Positions 50,209-62,781 of a stretch of 64,000 nt of DNA are shown piece by piece. The translations under genes were made by a program, and so were the position numbers. The stretch is from Flavobacterium taihuense (lineage in GTDB: Bacteria; Bacteroidota; Bacteroidia; Flavobacteriales; Flavobacteriaceae), in NCBI RefSeq assembly GCF_019351435.1, contig NZ_JAHWYN010000002.1:248001-312000 (forward strand). Reading direction: 5' to 3'. Position 1 is the stretch's first letter, and each line of letters opens with the position of its first letter. A model generated the notes under the pieces. It saw only the letters and a program-made list of their open reading frames with translations, was not told the DNA's origin and did no database searches.

Positions 50209-51390
50209 TTACAAGCCTACAGACCATCCTGAAGCCCAAGTTGGAGCAGAAACACCATTACCGGCACCAGTTGCAGTAGCTGACTCAGTCGCTACAGCAG
50301 TTACGTCAGCTGAAGTTGCGTCTGTTTTCTTTCCTTTAGTTTTTGTAGGAATAGTTGAAAAATTTACATTTGAAGCTTTTAACGATGTTCCAACACCTGC
50401 AATAGTTTCGTCGTGCTCTACGTCGATTCCTGTTTTGAAGTCACTCAATACTACGTTTGACAAAATTCCTCTCGTTCCTCTTCTCATTTTCATAGCTTGG
50501 TTTTCTGTGTAAATTGTTGCATCAGCAGCAATTCCAGCTCCAATTAATGTGATGTTTGTGATTGAAGGATTTGATAATGGAGTATTTGCAAAACCTAATT
50601 CAAAGTTGTCTGCTTCAATACCTCTGTTTCCTTTTCCGAAAGCTAATTTGCCATACCAATTAGTGTTTGTTCCCATCCAACCTTCTGTCCAGTCAAATTG
50701 ATCGTCTTCATTACCGTATGAGATAAGATTTGAAGTGTTTACAGTTCCTCCAAAAAACTCAAAGCCGTCATCAGCACCGTGATACGCTTCTACATATTCG
50801 AAAACAGTTCCAGACCCTACTGCAAATAAGGAAACGCCATTAAATTCTTTTTCGCTGTTGAAAGCGGCTCCAGCATATTCAATCCTTAAATATCTGATTG
50901 ATCCAGAATTATCATTTGCAATGGTACCACCGTAAGTTAAGTCGGCAACCTCAGATTGTGCAGTACTTGTTCCTCCAGTTACACGGTTGATTGGAGCTTT
51001 ACCACAAATTACTAAGCCTCCCCAGTCACCAGCTTTTTTAGTAACCAAACCACTTGTCATGATTACAGGATTTGCGCTAGTTCCATTTACGTTTATTTTT
51101 CCACCTTGTGATACAGCAATGTAGGATGCAGTTCCACCAGTACCCTCAATTTTAGTTCCTGCAGGAATGGTTAATGTAGCGCCTGCATTTACTTGTAATT
51201 TTCCAGTTAATTTGTATGTTGTGCTAGCTGAAAGGATAACTTCTCCATCTTTTATAGTTCCTTGAAAGTTATTAGCATCTACAACAAATGTTGATGAAGG
51301 TGTTTCATTGTTGCTGTCGCTTGAACAGCTAGTTAAGAATGATGCAGTTACAGCAAGAATTCCGAATAATTGTAAGAAAGATTTTTTCAT
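50209..51390 (-). CDS. Secreted beta-helix-like lipoprotein of the Pho locus
   Basis: 393 residues from the ATG at 51388-51390 (MKKSFLQLFGILAVTASFLT). Lipoprotein cysteine in LTSCSSDSNNETP. The mature protein has short glycine- and aspartate-rich turns repeated at even spacing (IRYLRIEYAGAAFN, FEYVEAYHGADDGFEFFGG, YGNEDDQFDWTEGW), the look of a right-handed parallel beta helix. A substrate-binding or cell-surface role beside the TonB receptor upstream is plausible. Separated from it by a terminator, so it may have its own promoter or be read through. Confidence 0.7.
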   Translation of the reverse strand: MKKSFLQLFGILAVTASFLTSCSSDSNNETPSSTFVVDANNFQGTIKDGEVILSASTTYKLTGKLQVNAGATLTIPAGTKIEGTGGTASYIAVSQGGKINVNGTSANPVIMTSGLVTKKAGDWGGLVICGKAPINRVTGGTSTAQSEVADLTYGGTIANDNSGSIRYLRIEYAGAAFNSEKEFNGVSLFAVGSGTVFEYVEAYHGADDGFEFFGGTVNTSNLISYGNEDDQFDWTEGWMGTNTNWYGKLAFGKGNRGIEADNFELGFANTPLSNPSITNITLIGAGIAADATIYTENQAMKMRRGTRGILSNVVLSDFKTGIDVEHDETIAGVGTSLKASNVNFSTIPTKTKGKKTDATSADVTAVATESATATGAGNGVSAPTWASGWSVGL

Positions 51391-51539
51391 GATTTTAATA
51401 GTTTTGTACATGTTTTTGTTAGGGCAAAGATTGCATGATTTATTTTTTTATAGGTTAAGCCATTGTGAATGTTAGTTTAATTAAACTTTACATTATCATT
51501 ACGATACTGTTTCCAATGTTAACAAAATTCACATATAAA

Positions 51540-51568: not shown

Positions 51569-54319
51569 TTAAAATTGATAGTTTAGGCTTAGGCTAAATG
51601 TAAGTCCCTTTTTGTATGATAAAACATTAATGTCTTCAGTTTTGTTTTCCTGAACTCTGTCAATTGTGGGGTCTAGAATATTCTTTGCTACAAAATCGAG
51701 ACCAAGTTTTTTGTTTAATTTGGTTTTTGCAATAAAGTCTAATGAGCCAAAAGCTTTGTCAACTAAATCGCCCCTGTCATTTGTCCCAATTGCATATACT
51801 CTATCGGAAAAATAAGTATAGGCAATGGTTGTGTTCAAATTACTTTCTTTGTTGTTCCATTCATTAAATAAGGAAATGTCAGCATTTAATAATAAATCAG
51901 ATGCGCCAGTAAACCTGCTTTCTTTATTTGTAAATACTACATTGTAATCTGTTTCAGCGATTACTTTTTCGGTGCTTAAATCTTGATTGCTATACAAATA
52001 AGAAGCGTTTATTCCTGCAGAAAGTTTCTTTGAGTTGGTTTCATCAATATTTAAAAGTAATTTGCGGTATTCTAATTCCGCTCCTCCAACATAACCAAAA
52101 TCTCCTGTGTTAATAAAGGAAATATCATTTGTTGAAGAGGCAATGGTAACTTCATTCATTGGGTTTTGAATGTATTTTCCAAAAGCGGTTATGGATATCA
52201 ATTCTTCACTTTTTGCGAACATTTCCCATTTTAAATCTAGGTTGTAATCATCAGAAGCATATAGGTTTGGGTTACCAACTTTTACTTCAGTAACATCTTC
52301 GTATACAAATAAGGCTCTTTCTTTGAATTGAGGTAATGTATACGTTTTGCTAAACCCAAAACGCAAGTTTTGTTTTTCGGTCAATTCATATTTCAAAGTC
52401 AAACTGGGCAAAATCGCAACTTTGTCTAATTCATTTTTCCCACCACTTGGGTCAAGTTGGGTGTTCCATTCTACATTTTGGAATACATATTCTCCTCTTA
52501 AACCAAGTACACCCGAAAGCCTCTCCCATTTGTATTCGGTGTTCAAGTAGCCGCCATTTATGTATTGTTCCCCATTGTATGTTTGAGGTTTCAATGCGTT
52601 TGAAACTTGAGAATTACCTCTAAACGTTGTGATTTCGAAGTAGCCATTGTCTAGATTTTGTTGGTTGTAAAACAAATCCAGATTGTTTGGGTCTACAATT
52701 GTGTTGGTAAAACCTTGGTTGGCTTTAAAGTTAAATTGTGTAGCTTCGAAGTCTCTTGTTTTAAATCTTCCGTTGTATCCTAAGGTAAATTTACCTTTGT
52801 ATTCGCCTTCTCCAGTTTTATTGAATTTATAATCAAAAGCTAAATTAGCTGCAGTTTCATTTTCAGATAATTTCTGGAAGTATCTATGGTTGTCTGGTGC
52901 AGAAATGCTTGATAAAACATAGCCGTTTGGTTCTTTTCTTGTAATATTTTGTGTTCTATCTGGCATGTTTCCATCGATCATATTGGCAGAAAGCCCCCAA
53001 TTGAACTTCGAACGGTCATTGAATTTGTGTTCCCCTAATAATTGATTGATCCACAAGCTGTTTTTTTCATATTTGTTTCTGCGAATAAATCCGTTTCCAT
53101 CATTAGCGATATCAACAATGTATCCAGAATATTCTTCTTTGCTTAATGATGAGGTATTTATGAAAACAGTATTGAAGTTTACTTTATTGCTGTTGTTAAT
53201 TTTATAGCTAAGATTTGTCATTGCTGTAAAATTGGTGTTATAGCTGTCAAGGGTATACGTTTTGAAATCCTTGTTAATAACTCCATTGCCATTCACGCTC
53301 CCTTTTGCGGAACCGTTATTTCTGGAAGTATAGTCATTGGTAAACGAAACAGTTGCGAAAAGATTTAATTTGCTATCGCCACCTGTATCAAATGATTTAC
53401 CACCTGTAAGAGTTATAGAACTTCCTATTGGACTTTTGGAGTCAAGCTGTAAAGTGTTGTAATTATATTGGGTTAATGGATTGCTTGGGATCGCAGGAAT
53501 ACTAAAGCCAGAAGTACTAATGTTTTTGTGTAATGAAAAGGTATCATTACCGATAGCATTGCTGTTTACTTCAGACCCAATGTCAAGTCTTAAGTATCCA
53601 TTTCCTTTGTAATCTTTGGATACAATATCGACGTTTCCTCCAGCGAAATCTCCAAACAATTTACTGTTGTACACTTTGTCTATGGAAACATATTCTAAAA
53701 TGTCTGTTGAAAAGATGTCTAAATTAAGGTTTTTCTTTTCAGGATCATTCGAAGGGATTGGTAAGCCGTTCATAGTAGTAGAATTGTAACGGTCTCCTAA
53801 ACCTCTTACAAAAATAGCGCCTGAACCTTCTTGTTTTGTGATCCCAGTTGTTTTCGTCACAGCAGTAGCAACATCACTTACCCCTTTTCTGGATAGTTCT
53901 TGTGCTCCAATAGTTTGTTTGATTTCGACTGCATTTTTTTGTTCCAATAACAAAACTGTTTCTTTTTGCCTGTTTACATTTGCTTTCACTACTACGTCTT
54001 TCAGTGTGTAACTTCCAGAACCCAATGATTTATTCAGTGTTACTGTTTCGTTGGTAACAACAGTTACAGGTACCTCTACAGATTCGTAGCCTAGAAAACT
54101 AAATTGTACAGTGTAATTTCCTGGGGCTATAGTAATTGTGTATTTTCCTTCTATGTCTGTGTTTGCGCCAATTTTTGTTCCTTTTATCAGCACATTGGCA
54201 AATGGTAAGGATTGATTTCCGGAATCTTTGTCTAGTAAAACACCTGTTATTGTTCCTTTATTTTGAGAGAAACCAATAGCGCAAATAAATAGTGTAAAGA
54301 ATAGAAATTTTAATTTCAT
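51569..54319 (-). CDS. TonB-dependent receptor with carboxypeptidase-like domain
   Basis: 916 residues. Signal peptide MKLKFLFFTLFICAIGFSQ, a CarboxypepD_reg-like domain (about 22-105; GVLLDKDSGNQSLPFANVLI), plug domain with SDVATAVTKTTGITKQEGSG and AIFVRGLGDRYNSTTMNGLP, then a 22-strand-type barrel ending in phenylalanine (LSLNYQF). No SusD partner gene follows. It starts next to a Pho-box-like array shared with phoB, so it probably imports a phosphate-containing compound under phosphate starvation; that is inference. Confidence 0.93.
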   Translation of the reverse strand: MKLKFLFFTLFICAIGFSQNKGTITGVLLDKDSGNQSLPFANVLIKGTKIGANTDIEGKYTITIAPGNYTVQFSFLGYESVEVPVTVVTNETVTLNKSLGSGSYTLKDVVVKANVNRQKETVLLLEQKNAVEIKQTIGAQELSRKGVSDVATAVTKTTGITKQEGSGAIFVRGLGDRYNSTTMNGLPIPSNDPEKKNLNLDIFSTDILEYVSIDKVYNSKLFGDFAGGNVDIVSKDYKGNGYLRLDIGSEVNSNAIGNDTFSLHKNISTSGFSIPAIPSNPLTQYNYNTLQLDSKSPIGSSITLTGGKSFDTGGDSKLNLFATVSFTNDYTSRNNGSAKGSVNGNGVINKDFKTYTLDSYNTNFTAMTNLSYKINNSNKVNFNTVFINTSSLSKEEYSGYIVDIANDGNGFIRRNKYEKNSLWINQLLGEHKFNDRSKFNWGLSANMIDGNMPDRTQNITRKEPNGYVLSSISAPDNHRYFQKLSENETAANLAFDYKFNKTGEGEYKGKFTLGYNGRFKTRDFEATQFNFKANQGFTNTIVDPNNLDLFYNQQNLDNGYFEITTFRGNSQVSNALKPQTYNGEQYINGGYLNTEYKWERLSGVLGLRGEYVFQNVEWNTQLDPSGGKNELDKVAILPSLTLKYELTEKQNLRFGFSKTYTLPQFKERALFVYEDVTEVKVGNPNLYASDDYNLDLKWEMFAKSEELISITAFGKYIQNPMNEVTIASSTNDISFINTGDFGYVGGAELEYRKLLLNIDETNSKKLSAGINASYLYSNQDLSTEKVIAETDYNVVFTNKESRFTGASDLLLNADISLFNEWNNKESNLNTTIAYTYFSDRVYAIGTNDRGDLVDKAFGSLDFIAKTKLNKKLGLDFVAKNILDPTIDRVQENKTEDINVLSYKKGLTFSLSLNYQF

Positions 54320-54370
54320 TTTGTGTAGTATTTAATTTTTTGCAAATAAATGGCAGGATTCTAGTTTTTG

Positions 54371-54425
54371 TGTTAACATCAAGTTATGAATCGATGTCAG
54401 AATTATTATAAAATTGTTAACATAT
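54371..54425. promoter_or_regulatory. Pho-box-like array between TonB receptor and phoB
   Basis: Read on the minus strand, five hexamers start every 11 bases: TTAACA, ATAATA, GACATC, ATAACT, TTAACA (54415-54420 down to 54371-54376). The outer TGTTAACA is palindromic, so the array can be read in both directions. It lies 52 bases before the TonB receptor start and about 135 before phoB. Possible minus -7 element TTTATTTG at 54343-54350. Confidence 0.55.
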
Positions 54426-54558: not shown

Positions 54559-55242
54559 ATGAAGAAAAGAAACACCAAGATTCTTCTGGTTGATGATGAA
54601 CCAGATATTTTAGAAATTGTAGGCTATAACTTAGCGCAGGAAGGTTACCAAATAGTTACTGCCGTAAATGGTAAAGATGCTATTGAAAAAGCTAAAAAAG
54701 AATTGCCGAGCCTTATTATTATGGATGTCATGATGCCAGAAATGGACGGAATGGAGGCATGCGAGCATATTAGAAGAATTCCAGAGTTGAATAATGTGAT
54801 TATTACGTTTTTGACAGCCAGAAGCGAAGATTATTCCCAAGTTGCTGGATTTGATGCTGGTGCCGATGATTATATCACAAAACCGATTAAACCAAAATTA
54901 TTGGTTAGTAAAGTCAAGGCTTTGTTACGAAGATTGAAAGAACAAGACCAAAACAGCGAAACGCTAAATGTTGGCGGAATAGAAATCAACCGTGAAGAAT
55001 ATAAAATTGTAAAAGACAATATCGAAATTGCTTTACCAAGAAAAGAGTTCGAATTGTTTTATTTATTGGCATCCAAGCCAGGGAAAGTGTTTAAAAGAGA
55101 AGAAATTTTAGACAAAGTTTGGGGGAATGATGTTGTTGTTGGTGGTAGAACAATCGATGTTCATATTAGAAAACTTCGTGAAAAAATTGGGGATGATCTT
55201 TTCAAAACCATAAAAGGAGTTGGTTATAAATTTGAAGTTTAA
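54559..55242 (+). CDS. phoB: Phosphate regulon response regulator PhoB
   Basis: 227 residues from the ATG at 54559 (MKKRNTKILLVDDEPD); a TTG start at 54547 is unlikely. Receiver domain with phosphorylated aspartate 56 (LIIMDVMMPEMDG), DAGADDYITKPI; OmpR/PhoB-type winged helix (EFELFYLLASKPGKVFKREE, VVGGRTIDVHIRKLREKIG). Next to phoR and pst genes, which supports the PhoB call over other OmpR types. Would bind the 11-bp-spaced repeats in this region. Confidence 0.92.
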   Translation: MKKRNTKILLVDDEPDILEIVGYNLAQEGYQIVTAVNGKDAIEKAKKELPSLIIMDVMMPEMDGMEACEHIRRIPELNNVIITFLTARSEDYSQVAGFDAGADDYITKPIKPKLLVSKVKALLRRLKEQDQNSETLNVGGIEINREEYKIVKDNIEIALPRKEFELFYLLASKPGKVFKREEILDKVWGNDVVVGGRTIDVHIRKLREKIGDDLFKTIKGVGYKFEV

Positions 55243-55281: not shown

Positions 55282-56403
55282 ATGTCTATACTATCGCGTG
55301 CAATATCACAAATGAAAGTCAATTTTAAAAAGAGTTACAAATTTGCTATAAAATCATCTCTATATATCAGTTTATTTGTTTCGGGATTTTGTATGATTCT
55401 TTCAGCAATACTGTTCAAATCTTCTTTTAGTGGCATACTGTCGTTTGGTTTTATTAGTCTGTTTTTTGTTTATGTGTTTTCGTTTTTTGTGTTACAATAC
55501 CGCGTAGAACGATTTATATACCGAAGAGTTAAAAAAATATACGATGACGTTGCACTCTTAGAATCGAGTACGTTTATCAATAAGCCAATCACTACCGATA
55601 TGGAAACTTTAACCCGGGAAGTAAAGAAGTTTGCTACCGATAAAAAGTTAGAAATCGAAATGCTTCAAATACGGGAAGAATACAGAAGAGAGTTTTTAGG
55701 AAATGTTTCGCATGAGCTTAAAACTCCATTATTTACCGTTCAGGGGTATTTGTCAACTCTTATAGATGGTGCGATGGATGATAAATCCATTAGAAAAAAA
55801 TATCTGAAACGTGCCGAAAAAGGAGTAGAGCGACTTATTTATATTGTAGAAGATTTGGATATGATTACCAAATTAGAATCTGGAGATTTGAATCTGGAGT
55901 TTACAAAATTTGATATCGTAAAACTGATTCACAATGTTTTTGATTTGCTGGAAATGAAAGCCGATAAAAAGAATATCACTTTGGCATTCGAAAATGATAG
56001 CATTCAGCCCATTTTTGTTAATGGTGATAAGGATAAAATTCAGCAAGTGGTCGAAAATTTAATTGTCAATTCCATAAAGTACGGAAAAGAAGGCGGTTTG
56101 ACCGAAGTTTCAATAGTTAATTTGACTAATAAAAAAGTCTTGGTTCGCGTTACCGATAATGGAGAAGGGATTGAAGCACATAATATCCCGCGTCTTTTTG
56201 AACGCTTTTATAGAGTTGATAAAAGTGGATCTCGATCGGAGGGAGGTTCAGGTTTAGGTCTTTCCATAGTGAAACATATTATTGAAGCACATAAAGAGAA
56301 AATTTATGTGGAAAGTGAGTTTGGAATTGGCTCTGAGTTTTCGTTTACTTTAGAAAAAACATTTATCACCGATCAATTTGGCTTAAAGAAGAAATTAAAT
56401 TAA
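55282..56403 (+). CDS. phoR: Phosphate sensor histidine kinase PhoR
   Basis: 373 residues; a start at 55312 (MKVNFKKSYKF) is equally possible. Two TM helices near the N-terminus (about 25-45 and 52-72), linker, HisKA with histidine 144 (FLGNVSHELKTPLFTVQGYL), ATP-binding boxes NLIVNSIKYGKEGG, VRVTDNGEGIEAHN, GSGLGLSIVKHI. No PAS or periplasmic sensor domain, as in PhoR proteins that sense through the Pst/PhoU complex. Directly downstream of phoB. Confidence 0.93.
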   Translation: MSILSRAISQMKVNFKKSYKFAIKSSLYISLFVSGFCMILSAILFKSSFSGILSFGFISLFFVYVFSFFVLQYRVERFIYRRVKKIYDDVALLESSTFINKPITTDMETLTREVKKFATDKKLEIEMLQIREEYRREFLGNVSHELKTPLFTVQGYLSTLIDGAMDDKSIRKKYLKRAEKGVERLIYIVEDLDMITKLESGDLNLEFTKFDIVKLIHNVFDLLEMKADKKNITLAFENDSIQPIFVNGDKDKIQQVVENLIVNSIKYGKEGGLTEVSIVNLTNKKVLVRVTDNGEGIEAHNIPRLFERFYRVDKSGSRSEGGSGLGLSIVKHIIEAHKEKIYVESEFGIGSEFSFTLEKTFITDQFGLKKKLN

Positions 56404-56506: not shown

Positions 56507-56573
56507 TTAACATTAAATTATCATCTAAATAACATTGTGTTAACTTTAACTTAACATTGCAGTATCACCTTTG
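56507..56573 (+). promoter_or_regulatory. Pho-box array and -7 element of the porin-pst operon
   Basis: Five octamers start exactly every 11 bases: TTAACATT (56507), TTATCATC (56518), ATAACATT (56529), TTAACTTT (56540), TTAACATT (56551). Five bases later CACCTTTG (56566-56573) is one base off the -7 consensus TAnnTTTG. The layout equals that of Pho boxes in other phyla: direct repeats on one DNA face ending at the promoter. About 30 bases from the -7 to the start codon. Confidence 0.7.
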
Positions 56574-56602
56574 CGCCAAATTAACATTCATATTTAAAGA
56601 AA

Positions 56603-57976
56603 ATGAAAAAAGTTATTGTTGCAATACTGGTATCGGTTTGCGGTGTGGTTAGTGCTCAAGAAGTTGAAAATGACTCAATTAAATCAATTAGTCTTGACTC
56701 ATTACAACAAGCCATTAATGAACATCAATTGAAATTTGATGCTCTAAACGAACAATTGTCGCCTATGCAAGAGCAAGTAGACAGAATGTCGAAATTAAAG
56801 ATATCAGGATATATGCAAGTTCAGTTCGAAATGTATAATTATCAAGATATACCTGTGGTAACACCTGCAAGTGGAACAACTCCCGCAAAAACCTCTTATT
56901 ATCAGCTTAAGCCAGGTACTTCTGAGACCAATGTGCCGTTGGCTACCAATTCTGTCGATGTGAACAATTCTTTTAACATAAGAAGAGCTAGGATAAAGTT
57001 TACGTATCAACCATTAGAAGGAGTGATTTTTGTTTTACAACCTAACTTTTCATTTAGTGCAGTAACTCTTAAAGATGCTTATGTTCAATTAAATGATCCT
57101 TGGATTAATAGTTTTCAATTGTGGATAGGTCAATTCAATAGACCAGATTATGAAGTTGAATTTTCTTCAAGAGATAGGATAATAATGGAAAGAAGTAGAA
57201 TGTCAGGAATTTTATATCCACAGGAAAGAGATTTAGGTGCAAAAATAAGTATGAATTTAGCAACTCAATATGAGATTCCTTTGAAAATTGACATCGCTGC
57301 ATTTAATGGTAACTTTGGAGAGGGACCAATTGCTAATCAAGTTACAGATGTGGATAGTGAAAAAGATTTTGTAATAAGAACAACTTATTCTTTACAATTT
57401 CCAAAGCAAGGTTTAGGAATTGATTTTGGAGCCAATGGATATTTTGGTAAAAATACTGTTTTTGCTGCGGGTACTTACAGTGATGTTAACAGTAATCCTT
57501 TTACAGCAGCTGTTGGAGATAAATTAAAAAAACAATGGTTTGGAGCTGAAATGCAGGTTTTTAGTGATTTACTTGGAGGTTTAGCTTTGAAATCTGAATT
57601 TAATAAAGGGGTGATTTCAGGGACGGCAGGTTCTGCTATCGTAAATAATAACCCTTCATTTAATTTTAGCGGTGAGAGAGAATTTACAGGTTATTATGTC
57701 ACATTAGAGAAAAATTTTGGAACTAAATTTCAAGCAGGTGCACGATATGATTCTTGGGATCCAAATAATAAATTGAAAGGAAATGAAGTAACTGTTGCTC
57801 AAGATTTGAAAGTTCATACTTGGGGGTTTGCTTTTCACTACTTCTTTACAACAAATACAAAAATAGGATTGGGTTATACAATGCCAATTAATGAAACAAG
57901 TACTACTGTGGGTGGTATTTATAACGACGATGTTAAAAATAATACAACAACACTAAGATTTCAAGCAAGCTTTTAA
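56603..57976 (+). CDS. OprO/OprP-like phosphate-selective porin
   Basis: 457 residues. Signal peptide ending VVSAQE, a coiled-coil stretch (about 30-65, SLQQAINEHQLKFDALNEQL) as in trimeric porins, then a 16-strand-type barrel (KISGYMQVQFEMYNY, IRRARIKFTYQPLEG, terminal FQASF with final phenylalanine). Gene order and family fit a phosphate or polyphosphate-selective porin of the outer membrane. First gene of the pst operon; 30 bases before pstS. Confidence 0.85.
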   Translation: MKKVIVAILVSVCGVVSAQEVENDSIKSISLDSLQQAINEHQLKFDALNEQLSPMQEQVDRMSKLKISGYMQVQFEMYNYQDIPVVTPASGTTPAKTSYYQLKPGTSETNVPLATNSVDVNNSFNIRRARIKFTYQPLEGVIFVLQPNFSFSAVTLKDAYVQLNDPWINSFQLWIGQFNRPDYEVEFSSRDRIIMERSRMSGILYPQERDLGAKISMNLATQYEIPLKIDIAAFNGNFGEGPIANQVTDVDSEKDFVIRTTYSLQFPKQGLGIDFGANGYFGKNTVFAAGTYSDVNSNPFTAAVGDKLKKQWFGAEMQVFSDLLGGLALKSEFNKGVISGTAGSAIVNNNPSFNFSGEREFTGYYVTLEKNFGTKFQAGARYDSWDPNNKLKGNEVTVAQDLKVHTWGFAFHYFFTTNTKIGLGYTMPINETSTTVGGIYNDDVKNNTTTLRFQASF

Positions 57977-58006: not shown

Positions 58007-58840
58007 ATGAAAACAACAAAATTAAAAACAGTATTGATACTAATGGTTGTAATGGGAATTGGATTTTCATTCACCACTATAAATAAAGTGACCGTAAAAG
58101 GGTCTGATACAATGGTTATTTTATCTCAAAAATGGGCTGAGGTATATATGAAGAAAAACCCAGGAACTTCTATTCAAGTGACTGGTGGTGGATCTGGAGT
58201 AGGTTTGGCAGCATTAATCAATGGATCAACCGATATTGCCAATTCAAGCCGTCCTATTAAAGCTTCTGAAGTAGAGAAATTGAAAGCTAGATACGGTACA
58301 TTAGGAGTTGAAATTCCTTGTGCAAAAGATGGTTTGTCTGTTTATTTGAATAAAGCCAATCCAGTTACTACTTTAACTTTGAAACAAATCGGACAAATTT
58401 TTGCTGGAAAAATTACCAATTGGAGCCAAGTAGGAGGACCGGATGCTACAATCAAATTATACGGAAGAGAAAGTAGTTCAGGTACATTTGGATTTTTCAA
58501 AGATAACGTAGTGAGAACAGATTTTTCGCCAACTTGTCAGACATTACCTGGAACTGCTGCTATAGTAAATGCAGTAAAAAAAGATAAATATTCAATTGGC
58601 TACGGTGGAGCTGCTTATGCAGAGGGAGTAAAAGATTGTGCCGTAAAGAAAGATGATAAAAGTCCAGCTATTTTGCCTACTGCAGCAACTATTAAAAATC
58701 ATACTTATCCTATCGCAAGGTATTTATATATGTATTTGAAATCGAAACCAACTGGTGAGGCGAAAGCATTTATCGATTGGATTTTGAGCCCTGCAGGTCA
58801 GGCGATTATTGAAGAAGTGGGTTATTATCCGTTGAAATAA
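58007..58840 (+). CDS. pstS: Phosphate-binding protein PstS
   Basis: 277 residues with signal-like N-terminus (TVLILMVVMGIGFSFTTI). Phosphate site motifs: KGSDTMVILSQKW, TGGGSGVGLAALINGSTDIA, RESSSGTFGFFKDNV. Binds inorganic phosphate in the periplasm and hands it to PstCA. Second gene of the operon. Confidence 0.95.
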   Translation: MKTTKLKTVLILMVVMGIGFSFTTINKVTVKGSDTMVILSQKWAEVYMKKNPGTSIQVTGGGSGVGLAALINGSTDIANSSRPIKASEVEKLKARYGTLGVEIPCAKDGLSVYLNKANPVTTLTLKQIGQIFAGKITNWSQVGGPDATIKLYGRESSSGTFGFFKDNVVRTDFSPTCQTLPGTAAIVNAVKKDKYSIGYGGAAYAEGVKDCAVKKDDKSPAILPTAATIKNHTYPIARYLYMYLKSKPTGEAKAFIDWILSPAGQAIIEEVGYYPLK

Positions 58841-58916: not shown

Positions 58917-60155
58917 ATGAATTCCGAATCACCTATCAAAAAAACTTTTACGCAGGAAAGTTTGAAAAAACAATTCAGGCTTTCTGAATTTCTTGCTGAG
59001 AAATTTATTTCTATGATTGCTTTTTTATCAATAGCGATTATATTTTTAATTTTCATTTTTGTTTTCAAAGAGTCATTGCCACTATTTAGTTTTGGAAGTG
59101 ATGCTAAAGCAAAAACTGAAGCTCAAGCAACAAGTGCTAATAAACCTGAAAGCTACGGTACTGAACCTGAGGGGGATTTAAAACCAGAATCCTATGGTAC
59201 TGAGAACGCGGAAGATCTAAAACCAGAATCCTATGGTACAGAAACTACTAAGGATTTGAAACCTGAAACGTATGGTTCTGAACCTGCGGACGATTTAAAG
59301 CCGGAAGTATATGGCGATGCACCAAAAGAAGATTTATCAGTTCCAGCAGAGGACGAATCAGTGGGAGCTGTTTCTGAAAATCAAGAAGGCTCAGATAAAA
59401 CCTGGAATACTTTTTTTACTTCAGAATGGGTTCCCGTTTCTGAAAATCCTAGATTTGGATTGTTGGGATTGTTAATTGGCACTTTAAAAGTGACTATTAT
59501 TGCAATGCTTATCGCTGGACCTTTAGCTGTTCTAGCGGCATTGTTTACTTCTTGTTTCGCTTCAAAGAGAGTCAAGGAAATTATCAAACCTATTATCGAA
59601 ATGCTGGCTGCGTTTCCATCTGTTGTTATTGGTTTTTTTGCCTTAATGGTTTTGGCTAGTTTTTTCCAGGACGTTTTCGGTTATGACTCCAGATTGAATG
59701 CTTTTGTAGGTGGAGTAGCGATGGCTTTGGCTGCTATTCCTATTATTTATACCATTTCAGAAGATGCATTGGCGGCGGTTCCAAAAACATACACCGAAGC
59801 AAGTTTAGCATTGGGCGCGAGCAAATGGCAAACTGCTTTTTTTGTGGTTTTACCGGCGGCAACACCTGGTATTTTTGCTGCGTTGTTATTGGGCGTGGGA
59901 AGGGTTTTTGGGGAAACCATGATTGCTTTGATGGCAACTGGAAATGCAGCTTTGGTGTCAGCCAATCCATTTGAAAGCGTGCGTACTTTTGCAGCCACTA
60001 TTGGTGCTGAAATGTCTGAGACTGTCTTTGGGGATACTCACTATAGCGTCTTGTTTTTTATAGGGTCTTTACTTTTCATCTTCTCATTTGCTTTAAATGC
60101 TGTAGCTGAGTTTTATGTTAAAGGCAAATTATTGAAAAAATTCCAAGGGAAATAA
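58917..60155 (+). CDS. pstC: Phosphate ABC transporter permease PstC with repeat insert
   Basis: 412 residues, longer than the usual about 300. TM1 at about 32-50 is followed by a periplasmic loop holding five 13-residue repeats of the form KPESYGTEPEGDL (residues 76-140). The permease part follows (FGLLGLLIGTLKVTIIAMLI, TYTEASLALGASKWQT EAA-loop, GRVFGETMIALMATG). The repeat insert is not known to me from PstC. Third operon gene, 76 bases after pstS. Confidence 0.93.
   Translation: MNSESPIKKTFTQESLKKQFRLSEFLAEKFISMIAFLSIAIIFLIFIFVFKESLPLFSFGSDAKAKTEAQATSANKPESYGTEPEGDLKPESYGTENAEDLKPESYGTETTKDLKPETYGSEPADDLKPEVYGDAPKEDLSVPAEDESVGAVSENQEGSDKTWNTFFTSEWVPVSENPRFGLLGLLIGTLKVTIIAMLIAGPLAVLAALFTSCFASKRVKEIIKPIIEMLAAFPSVVIGFFALMVLASFFQDVFGYDSRLNAFVGGVAMALAAIPIIYTISEDALAAVPKTYTEASLALGASKWQTAFFVVLPAATPGIFAALLLGVGRVFGETMIALMATGNAALVSANPFESVRTFAATIGAEMSETVFGDTHYSVLFFIGSLLFIFSFALNAVAEFYVKGKLLKKFQGK
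59142..59336 (+). repeat. 39-bp tandem repeat (five units) in pstC
   Basis: Units of 39 bases encode KPESYGTEPEGDL, KPESYGTENAEDL, KPESYGTETTKDL, KPETYGSEPADDL, KPEVYGDAPKEDL. Silent and replacement changes differ between units, so the array is not recent. Confidence 0.85.
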
Positions 60156-60157
60156 TT

Positions 60158-61102
60158 ATGGATAAAGTATTAAATGAATCAGAAGGTCACTTTTTTTCGA
60201 GTAGAAAGAGCACTTCAGATATAAAAGGGAAAATTTTTGTTGGTTTAACGCAGTTAGCCGTGATACTTATCATTTCGATCCTTTTTATTATTTTGGCGGT
60301 TATTGTTTATCAAGGACGATCTAAATTTTCTTGGGAATTTATTTCTTCTTTTCCAACAAATGGAATGACCGAGGGTGGAATTTTCCCAGCCTTAATAGGG
60401 ACTTTTATTCTTGTTATCGTTATGTCTATTGCGGCAGTGCCTTTTGGAACAATCACTGCTTTGTACTTAACAGAATATGCAAGTGAGAACTCTAAATTTG
60501 CAGCTGCGGTTCGATTCTCCGTTCGTACATTGGCAGTTGTGCCATCGATTATATTTGGTCTTTTCGGTCTTGGGTTTTTTATCCAATTTTTGGGTGCTGG
60601 TGCTGATACTGCTTTTAATGGAGGTGAATTGCGTTGGGGACAGCCTAATATTCTTTGGGCGAGCTTAACGATGGCTTTATTAACCTTACCAGTTATTATA
60701 GTGTCTGTTGAAGAGGCCTTGAAAACCATTCCTCGTGAATTGAGAGAAGCCAGTTTGGCACTTGGCGCAACCAAATGGCAAACAATAAAAAAAGTAGTGC
60801 TTCCCGGTTCTGTTTCGGGAATTATGACGGGTACTATTCTTGCTGTAAGTAGAGGTGCCGGTGAGGTTGCCCCAATATTATTTACAGGAGCAGCTTATTA
60901 TTTGGCTACACTACCAGGGTCTTTGAGTGATCAATTTATGAATTTGGGGTATCATGTTTACATTATGTCCACTCAATCTTCAGATGTAGAGAAAACCATG
61001 CCAATACAATTTGCAACCACTTTGGTATTGTTGATTTTGACATTATCATTAAATGTTGTGGCGGTAATTATTAGGTCAAGAATCAGAAGAAAAGCAAAAT
61101 AA
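60158..61102 (+). CDS. pstA: Phosphate ABC transporter permease PstA
   Basis: 314 residues, about six TM helices. EAA-type cytoplasmic loop PRELREASLALGATKWQTIK, ISRGAGEVAPILFTGAAYYL-type segment and end IIRSRIRRKAK. Pairs with PstC to form the channel. Start is 2 bases after the pstC stop. Confidence 0.95.
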   Translation: MDKVLNESEGHFFSSRKSTSDIKGKIFVGLTQLAVILIISILFIILAVIVYQGRSKFSWEFISSFPTNGMTEGGIFPALIGTFILVIVMSIAAVPFGTITALYLTEYASENSKFAAAVRFSVRTLAVVPSIIFGLFGLGFFIQFLGAGADTAFNGGELRWGQPNILWASLTMALLTLPVIIVSVEEALKTIPRELREASLALGATKWQTIKKVVLPGSVSGIMTGTILAVSRGAGEVAPILFTGAAYYLATLPGSLSDQFMNLGYHVYIMSTQSSDVEKTMPIQFATTLVLLILTLSLNVVAVIIRSRIRRKAK

Positions 61103-61243: not shown

Positions 61244-62002
61244 ATGAAAGACATAAAAATAAAGGTTAATGATTTATCATTATACTACGGAGATAAAAAG
61301 GCCTTGAACGAAATCACAATGGATATTCCGGCCAACAAGGTAACAGCTTTAATTGGACCCTCAGGCTGTGGAAAATCAACTTTTTTGAGATGTATTAACA
61401 GGATGAATGACCTTATTCCAAGTGTTTCGATTACTGGGAAAATGTTAGTGGAAGGAGTTGATATTTACGACAAAAATGTTGATGTTGTCAATATCCGAAA
61501 GAAAATTGGTATGGTTTTTCAAAAATCAAACCCTTTCCCAAAATCGATATATGAGAATATTGCCTATGGACCTCGAATTAATGGAATGAAAGATAAAACG
61601 GAATTGGATGAAATCGTTGAAACTTCTTTGCGCCAAGCGGCTATCTGGGATGAGTTAAAAGATCGTTTGGACGATTCGGCTTTAGGGCTTTCTGGAGGTC
61701 AACAGCAACGTTTGTGTATTGCCAGAACATTGGCGGTGAGCCCTGATATTATTTTGATGGATGAACCAGCAAGTGCTTTGGATCCTATTTCAACTTCTAA
61801 AATTGAAGAATTAGTGCATCAATTAAAGGAACAATATACTATTATTATTGTGACACATAATATGCAACAAGCAGCTCGAACGAGTGATCATACAGCTTTT
61901 TTTTATATGGGTAATTTAATAGAGATGGGAAAAACAAATTCTATATTTACCAAACCAGTACAAAAACAAACGGAAGATTATATTACAGGAAGATTTGGTT
62001 AA
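61244..62002 (+). CDS. pstB: Phosphate ABC transporter ATP-binding protein PstB
   Basis: 252 residues from the ATG at 61244 ([16 protein letters not shown]); a GTG start at 61214 is less likely. Walker [10 protein letters not shown] (residues 38-46), signature [15 protein letters not shown], Walker [15 protein letters not shown]-loop [11 protein letters not shown]. Drives phosphate import with PstSCA. The gap of 141 bases to pstA is larger than the other operon gaps and contains no obvious gene. Confidence 0.96.
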
Positions 62003-62100: not shown

Positions 62101-62781
62101 ATGGCAACACATTTCGAAATGGAACTAGATAACTTAAAAAGTATTATTAAAAAGATTGGGAAATTGGCTGAAGGTCAAGTGAGCGAAGCAGTCAAAATAC
62201 TTTTACAGGAACCAGAAGCCGCTGAAGGAAAAATCATAAAAAAAACTGAAAACAAAATTGATAAATTAGATATCAAAATAGATGAGATTTGTCAAAGTAT
62301 TTTTGCTTTGCAGCAACCTGTTGCTTCTGATTTACGTTTTATTATGTCGGCGATGCAAATCAGTAATGAGATTGAGCGAATAGGAGATTTGTCCATTAGC
62401 ATTGTAAAAAAGGCAAAAAACATAAAGGAAAAACACGATTTGATTCTAAAATTTGATATTGCTGATATTGCCAGACAAGTTGAATTGATTACAGTTAAAA
62501 CCAATAATTGTTTTGCCTCACAAGATGGTAATGCAACTGGAGTGATATTTGTTTTAAACAAGGACATTAGAAACAGCTGTGAAGATGCCATTCATGATAT
62601 TATCAATGAAATGAAGGTGAATTCAAAAGCTGTGGTTTCAGGAACCAATCTGGTGATTGTTTTAAAACATTTGGAACGCATTTCGGAGCATTGTACCAAT
62701 ATCGCGGAGTATGTTTATTTTACGGTTAATGCAAAAATTATCAAACACGATAAATCGGATGATTTAAAGGCTGAGGAATAA
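62101..62781 (+). CDS. phoU: Phosphate transport regulator PhoU
   Basis: 226 residues in two three-helix-bundle repeats. Metal-binding-type motifs in both halves: SDLRFIMSAMQISNEIERIGD and VLKHLERISEHCTNIAEYVYF (E/DxxxD patterns). Links Pst transport to PhoR to keep the regulon off when phosphate is plentiful. The spacer before it (62003-62100) is full of ACTATTAAACTTATAGACTA microrepeats. Confidence 0.95.
   Translation: MATHFEMELDNLKSIIKKIGKLAEGQVSEAVKILLQEPEAAEGKIIKKTENKIDKLDIKIDEICQSIFALQQPVASDLRFIMSAMQISNEIERIGDLSISIVKKAKNIKEKHDLILKFDIADIARQVELITVKTNNCFASQDGNATGVIFVLNKDIRNSCEDAIHDIINEMKVNSKAVVSGTNLVIVLKHLERISEHCTNIAEYVYFTVNAKIIKHDKSDDLKAEE

Follow-up and report, generated by a model that had tools for sequence, protein, structure and literature searches.

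A phased 11-bp direct-repeat array at the porin–pst promoter of Flavobacterium taihuense, a probable Pho box of the Bacteroidia

The porin–pst locus and its repeat array

The stretch of Flavobacterium taihuense DNA analysed here (64,000 nucleotides, referred to below as the window) carries a porin–pstSCAB–phoU gene cluster preceded by genes for a PhoB-type response regulator and a PhoR-type histidine kinase, with a gene for a TonB-dependent receptor lying divergent from phoB. A direct-repeat array is found between phoR and the porin gene. The features are as follows.

51423–51480, minus strand: phased units with a −7 box, the second-best site in the window (score 16.9, distance 30)
51569–54319, minus strand: TonB-dependent receptor (PF07715, PF13715 and PF14905, the Pfam set listed for Fjoh_0545)
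54343–54420, minus strand: TonB-receptor promoter with four phased units, divergent from phoB
54559–55242, plus strand: PhoB-type response regulator (top NCBIfam match TIGR02154), the proposed binder of the array
55282–56403, plus strand: PhoR-type histidine kinase (PnpS and PhoR models best, under their cut-offs)
56507–56514, 56518–56525, 56529–56536, 56540–56547 and 56551–56558, plus strand: the five array units, a proposed Pho box
56566–56573, plus strand: −7 box CACCTTTG, of the TAnnTTTG type with one mismatch
56603–57976, plus strand: Porin O/P family outer-membrane protein (PF07396), the first gene after the array
58007–58840, plus strand: pstS (TIGR02136, above cut-off)
58917–60155, plus strand: pstC (TIGR02138, above cut-off)
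60158–61102, plus strand: pstA (TIGR00974, above cut-off)
61244–62002, plus strand: pstB (TIGR00972, above cut-off)
62101–62781, plus strand: phoU (TIGR02135, above cut-off)

The two regulators are named PhoB-type and PhoR-type because their best models match under the curated cut-offs. For the PhoB-type protein, the two best of 99 NCBIfam families were TIGR02154 (218.5 bits against a cut-off of 296.2) and NF053854 (208.2 bits against 270). Both genes lie directly upstream of the array, as an earlier sequence-only reading of the window had it. In the pstC ORF, an imperfect repeat tract of the KPESYGTE type (59142–59318) is seen near the start, ahead of the PstC model match.

The array itself comprises five TTAACATT-like octamers on the forward strand (56507–56558) with a period of exactly 11 bp: TTAACATT at 56507, TTATCATC at 56518, ATAACATT at 56529, TTAACTTT at 56540 and TTAACATT again at 56551. 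It thus has the at least two direct-repeat units at an 11-bp period that define membership of the Pho box class. The units match TTAACATT at 8, 6, 7, 7 and 8 of eight positions, giving a sum of 36/40, against 25–27/40 for the five-unit optimum at each of the remaining periods from 8 to 16 in the same window. An extra copy of TTAACATT, a sixth, is found at 56581 in a different phase. The near-consensus −7 box that the sequence-only reading had placed after the array is present as CACCTTTG, with the TTTG 19 nt from the start of the last unit. When the whole window was scanned for phased units followed by a −7 box, the pst array scored 40.9 and the runner-up, a separate site, 16.9; a score of 18.0 was also reached at periods other than 11, and the pst array alone stands out.

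Could a repeat of this kind arise by chance in AT-rich intergenic DNA? The window has a GC content of 34%, which makes TTAACATT-like words common. However, across 300 sequences of 64 kb generated by a first-order Markov model, the maximum sum at period 11 was 29 (mean 25.9) against the 36 observed, and this, together with the conservation described below, refutes a chance origin, to which we give practically no weight. The five octamers and their 11-bp spacing are exactly as first read.

Two further sites of the window have phased units. The TonB-receptor promoter has units at 54420, 54409, 54387 and 54376 (the phased position at 54398 is empty), with a TTTG 30 nt past the start of the last unit. 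The runner-up site (51423–51480) has its TTTG 17 nt ahead of a lipoprotein-like ORF (50209–51411) that is a 38–40% relative of the FII-type gene found at two of the related loci (L006 and L023). Taken alone, this site is weak, scores near 18 occurring at other periods in the window.

Conservation and register in relatives

A PhoR-based scan of named genomes yielded 416 confirmed relatives, of which the best 80, all Flavobacterium-group loci, were used. A pstS match was present in 26 of the 80 loci and absent from 54, and a PhoB-type match was present in 77. Among the regions read, the array follows phoR in pst and non-pst loci alike, with spacers and second unit strongly altered. With the period forced to 11 and TTTG to 19 nt, 59 of the 80 loci scored at least 18/24; the 21 lower loci comprise 15 at 17, two at 16, L082 at 15, L084 and L085 at 14 and L052 at 13. 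In some of those at 17 (L032 and L060, for example), the box was read by eye at 20 nt. At L070 (position 8403), and also at L033, L048 and L058, the interval between phoR and the gene that follows it holds two near-perfect units on the opposite strand, an inverted array.

We used an unbiased grid of three TTAACA units plus TTTG (periods 8–16, distances 12–31) to locate the preferred spacing. Its optimum was period 11 and distance 19 in the 26 pst promoters, the 54 non-pst porin promoters and the 72 divergent TonB promoters. For 16 pstS upstream regions belonging to other genera of the order, the grid peaked at period 11 and distance 30, that is, 19 + 11. The spacing is thus conserved upstream of pst both within the genus and in other genera of the order; its failure to be so was one of the grounds that the sequence-only reading had named for giving up its proposal.

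We next took a unit matrix derived from 59 porin promoters alone and ran it over 252 period × distance cells. In TonB promoters (n = 72), the (11,19) cell ranked first at k = 3, and second and third at k = 2 and 4 after other period-11 cells. In TBDT–phytase promoters (n = 20), where an earlier grid of unweighted letters had not selected 11/19, it ranked first at k = 3 and 4 and ninth at k = 2. Order-level pstS regions (n = 16) gave rank 1 at k = 2, and ranks 5 and 2 at k = 3 and 4 after period-11 cells. The nine DUF47–pit promoters were selected by their array, hence only their distance is informative: this was 18–19 at k = 3 and 4, with (11,29) top and (11,19) second at k = 2.

As a control, the grid was run on every promoter group that reached 15 or more members in the 80 loci, 19 groups in all. 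Six of them (porin, pstS, two TonB, FII lipoprotein and glycosyltransferase) had period 11 in the lead, at a distance of 19 or 30; the porin group was the training set and, at k = 4, had (11,8) first and (11,19) second. Thirteen of the 19 groups, namely phoB, phoR, pstC, pstA, pstB, phoU and seven more, showed no such lead; in the pstA group, (11,25) was first at k = 3. The array is concentrated at phosphate-related promoters, before which its location is conserved in relatives, and its register over the −33/−35 region is fixed, 19 or 30 nt to TTTG being at or near the lead.

These results bear on an alternative in which the repeat would act as AT-rich, helically phased DNA, UP-like or bendable, that aids RNA polymerase without any specific regulator. 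Rich in A and T, the repeat does keep phase with both the helix and the −7 box. Information nevertheless peaks in the TAAC core, the C of unit 5 reaching up to 1.91 bits, and an A-tract element has no need of a conserved C; moreover, the pattern is absent from 13 of 19 promoter groups. We regard this explanation as very improbable.

Beyond the order, 69 pstS upstream regions from other orders of the same class (L348–L416) were analysed. Period 11 was the single best period for three units in 34 of them, against 7.7 expected (binomial 4e-15, relatedness ignored), and the grid placed distances 19 and 30 on top for two and three units and 19 for four. The spacing is therefore borne out at this level in roughly half of the regions. 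The remaining 35 do not have period 11 as their single best, which counts against the Pho box reading. One locus of another order (L294) exceeds the five units of the window, with six good units over eight phased positions, in two groups of three that share one phase and lie 55 bp from each other; its box distance is 30. Among the pstS regions taken at the level of the phylum (L206–L234), no 11-bp TTAACA array rose above the scores at other periods, one locus reaching 17; these regions, mostly from genomes of the same phylum, are taken as lying outside the range of the Pho box. By eye and unscored, the only two strong PhoX loci (L235 and L236) have TTAATATA with TTCG 30 nt on.

The proposed Pho box and its relation to known systems

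Bacteroidota are abundant in the gut, in soil and in water, and have an unusual promoter; the array shows how an activator of the OmpR type may be positioned relative to the sigma factor of this phylum. We consider it very probable that the array is a phosphate-starvation operator (Pho box) of the Bacteroidia, presumably bound by phosphorylated PhoB and activating porin–pst. Phosphorylated PhoB would bind the TTAACA-type units head to tail, one molecule per 11-bp unit (one helical turn), would substitute for the −33 element, with units 4 and 5 flanking the −33 region, and would draw RNA polymerase to the porin–pstSCAB–phoU promoter under phosphate scarcity. The Flavobacterium −7 box TAnnTTTG is reported to span −12 to −5 (PMC9723704). 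By this register transcription would start near 56578, unit 5 would lie at about −27 to −20 and unit 4 at about −38 to −31, and the array would therefore occupy the place of the −33 element. Box distances cluster at 18–20 and 30–31; the two clusters differ by roughly one turn of the helix, as would fit a protein that contacts a single face of the DNA. The proposal of a Bacteroidetes Pho box, made by the sequence-only reading, draws support from the conserved period and register and from the recurrence of the array before DUF47–pit and before gene types reported to be induced by phosphate starvation in F. johnsoniae.

The PhoP box of Bacillus subtilis has a TTAACA-type consensus in direct repeat. 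Its hexamer appears to be nearly the same as that of the array; phylum and sigma factor differ. In E. coli, PhoB is described as binding head to tail to a Pho box of two 11-nucleotide direct repeats with the core CTGTCAT, and Bacillus is said to show similar features (PMC4415409). The window array resembles the E. coli Pho box in its 11-nt direct repeats, in its location upstream of pst and in lying beside a phoBR-type system. It differs in its unit (TTAACATT rather than CTGTCAT, which direct reading of the window array did not find), in having five units instead of two and in its placement 19 or 30 nt from a −7 box of the Bacteroidota type, TAnnTTTG.

Within the Bacteroidota, the PhoB protein of B. 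fragilis is reported to bind a 512-bp fragment of the pst promoter and to be required for pst and for a phosphate/sulphate permease (PMC3547664); pst is thus a target in common, and the accessible part of that report localises binding to the fragment, with the site unmapped there. The Riemerella anatipestifer PhoP motif determined by DAP-seq, with EMSA, has the core TTTAACA, is likened by its authors to that of ArcA, and belongs to a system described as up-regulated under phosphate starvation (PMC9603813). The core is shared with the array, and neither an 11-bp array nor a Pho box is mentioned in the accessible part of that paper. Predicted Pho boxes near plcP are mentioned elsewhere, with no sequence given in the portion at hand (PMC4796936). 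A literature search judged by titles and the openings of abstracts found no sequence or repeat architecture for a Bacteroidota Pho box. As far as our searches show, then, the core sequence was already in print and the 11-bp architecture, the −7 register and the spread are new.

In a R. anatipestifer double mutant, pstS is reported to rise 8-fold (PMC5399024), and this, being opposite in sign to activation, counts against the Pho box reading as far as the available text goes. The array might instead be an 11-bp operator of the OmpR/PhoB type read by another regulator of the family, possibly a repressor, as might be suggested by Riemerella, where PhoP binds TTTAACA and loss of the system nonetheless raises pstS in these partly available accounts, and by TTAAG-type arrays that precede a different OmpR-type regulator (L095 and L115). 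We think this unlikely: the array accompanies phosphate genes across several transcription units and orders, a PhoB-type gene adjoins phoR in 77 of the 80 named loci, and B. fragilis PhoB, on the published account available, directly binds pst and is required for it.

The reading of the array as a PhoB-bound Pho box can also be set against expression data for F. johnsoniae DSM 2064 under phosphate depletion (PMC8115612). Log2 fold changes reported there are 8.02 for the TonB receptor Fjoh_0545, 9.91 for the FII lipoprotein Fjoh_0546, 5.42 for the glycosyltransferase Fjoh_0541, 9.22 for the TBDT Fjoh_1368 and 5.76 for the phytase Fjoh_1367. Counterparts of these induced genes were matched through gene order, Pfam content and family (PF02333) rather than by accession, the F. 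johnsoniae locus scored being that of strain CI04; the lipoprotein group includes the gene directly behind the TonB gene at that locus (L023), the gap being 93–288 nt in 40 of 44 loci. The array is present at all four of the strongly induced units scored, a minority of the units in the Table 1 published for this experiment. Two genes do not fit, and both count against a Pho box. OprP (Fjoh_0542) is reported as not phosphate-induced (−1.3, adjusted p 0.245; PMC8115612), yet the array is well preserved in the CI04 porin promoter (L023). Conversely, phoB is reported as induced (3.06; PMC8115612) yet has no array in its own direction; it may be served by the one at the divergent TonB promoter.

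Other arrays and a Flavobacterium small RNA

In the F. taihuense genome, a three-unit search with up to two mismatches gave a sole match besides the pst array, and this precedes DUF47–pit; with up to three mismatches, the matches were the pst array, DUF47–pit (contig C18) and one more (C67), against two in the control. The DUF47–Pit array has three units on the minus strand (C18:36545–36573, or 1501–1529 of L003) and overlaps the final 15 nt of the upstream ORF (1515–3029 of L003). Across 150 genomes of the genus, the three-unit pattern gave 410 matches against 269 in the control, a moderate enrichment; most matches are therefore due to chance and only the best ones are telling. A pattern of two units plus TTTG showed no enrichment in either genome searched (13 against 39 in the control for F. 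taihuense, 27 against 37 for the genome of L023), and the regulon therefore cannot be listed by it. The weak genome-wide enrichment counts against the Pho box reading. With the TTAACA unit, the 11-bp period and the 19 or 30 nt to the −7 box, genomes of many members of the class can be searched for the phosphate regulon, although two units alone give too weak a pattern for a genome-wide listing.

From the matches listed, twenty places were chosen, not at random, because their arrays were strong or recurring. Of these, ten lie before genes of phosphate transport (DUF47 in seven, pstS in two and a Pit-type gene in one), two precede a small RNA (L131 and L134) and eight precede other genes or none. 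All seven DUF47 genes match PF01865, and the next gene is of the Pit type in the five of the seven that were checked, three of these falling under the model cut-off. The pstS cases are L124, which has a second array before pstC, and L133; the Pit-type case is L125.

Several other repeats came to light in these searches. At L095 and L115, 11-bp arrays of TTAAG-type units lie 102–103 nt ahead of an ORF for an OmpR-type response regulator that is not PhoB; the regulator may itself act on such an array, which would then be a sister operator to the Pho box, built from a different unit. A conserved three-unit look-alike, TTGATATTCAG / TTGATATTCAGTTAACTTTAAATTAACAT, recurs (L098, L127 and others among the matches listed) with no ORF of at least 80 codons close behind. 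A third pattern, 'Class C' (TTAATTTTATTTTAACATAATATTAACAT; five matches listed with up to two mismatches), was set aside as probably unrelated, its neighbours, judged by eye, being a palindromic repeat and a divergent gene.

The array also led to a small RNA that is found across the genus and is specific to it, and that may belong to the regulon. It is about 80–90 nt long, with a −7 box, a terminator-like hairpin and a conserved stretch, for example TTTGGTTTTGGTTAGTTA; no gene lies behind the array. Its operator has AAC-core units at a period of 11 bp, three or four in most of the members read, with TTTG 31 nt past the last unit. Nine member loci compared with Rfam gave no match. A covariance model (R1) built from nine loci, with the array left out, found the small RNA in 172 of 199 Flavobacterium genomes, that of F. 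taihuense included, with two or three adjacent copies in some cases; a search of 196 genomes of the order, run with filters that lose weak matches, gave 18 matches, all in Flavobacterium. A pattern search recovered the core in 47 of 50 small RNA loci, seven of which had first been found via the array, and for 51 regions upstream of core loci the best cell was period 11 and distance 31.

We tentatively suggest, as a possibility that falls somewhat short of being the probable one, that this Flavobacterium small RNA stands under a Pho box-like operator, is activated by PhoB and forms a post-transcriptional arm of the phosphate response. That its distance is 31 and not 30 is a reason for caution over control by PhoB. 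The small RNA Rfp18 of F. psychrophilum is said to pair through its third stem-loop (PMC9723704), a feature that, on the part of the account available, does not obviously fit the two hairpins of the small RNA described here. The F. taihuense copy is placed as follows.

G000:C34:30480–30569, minus strand: match to covariance model R1 (locus L328)

Its operator has four AAC/AAT cores, spaced 11, 10 and 11.
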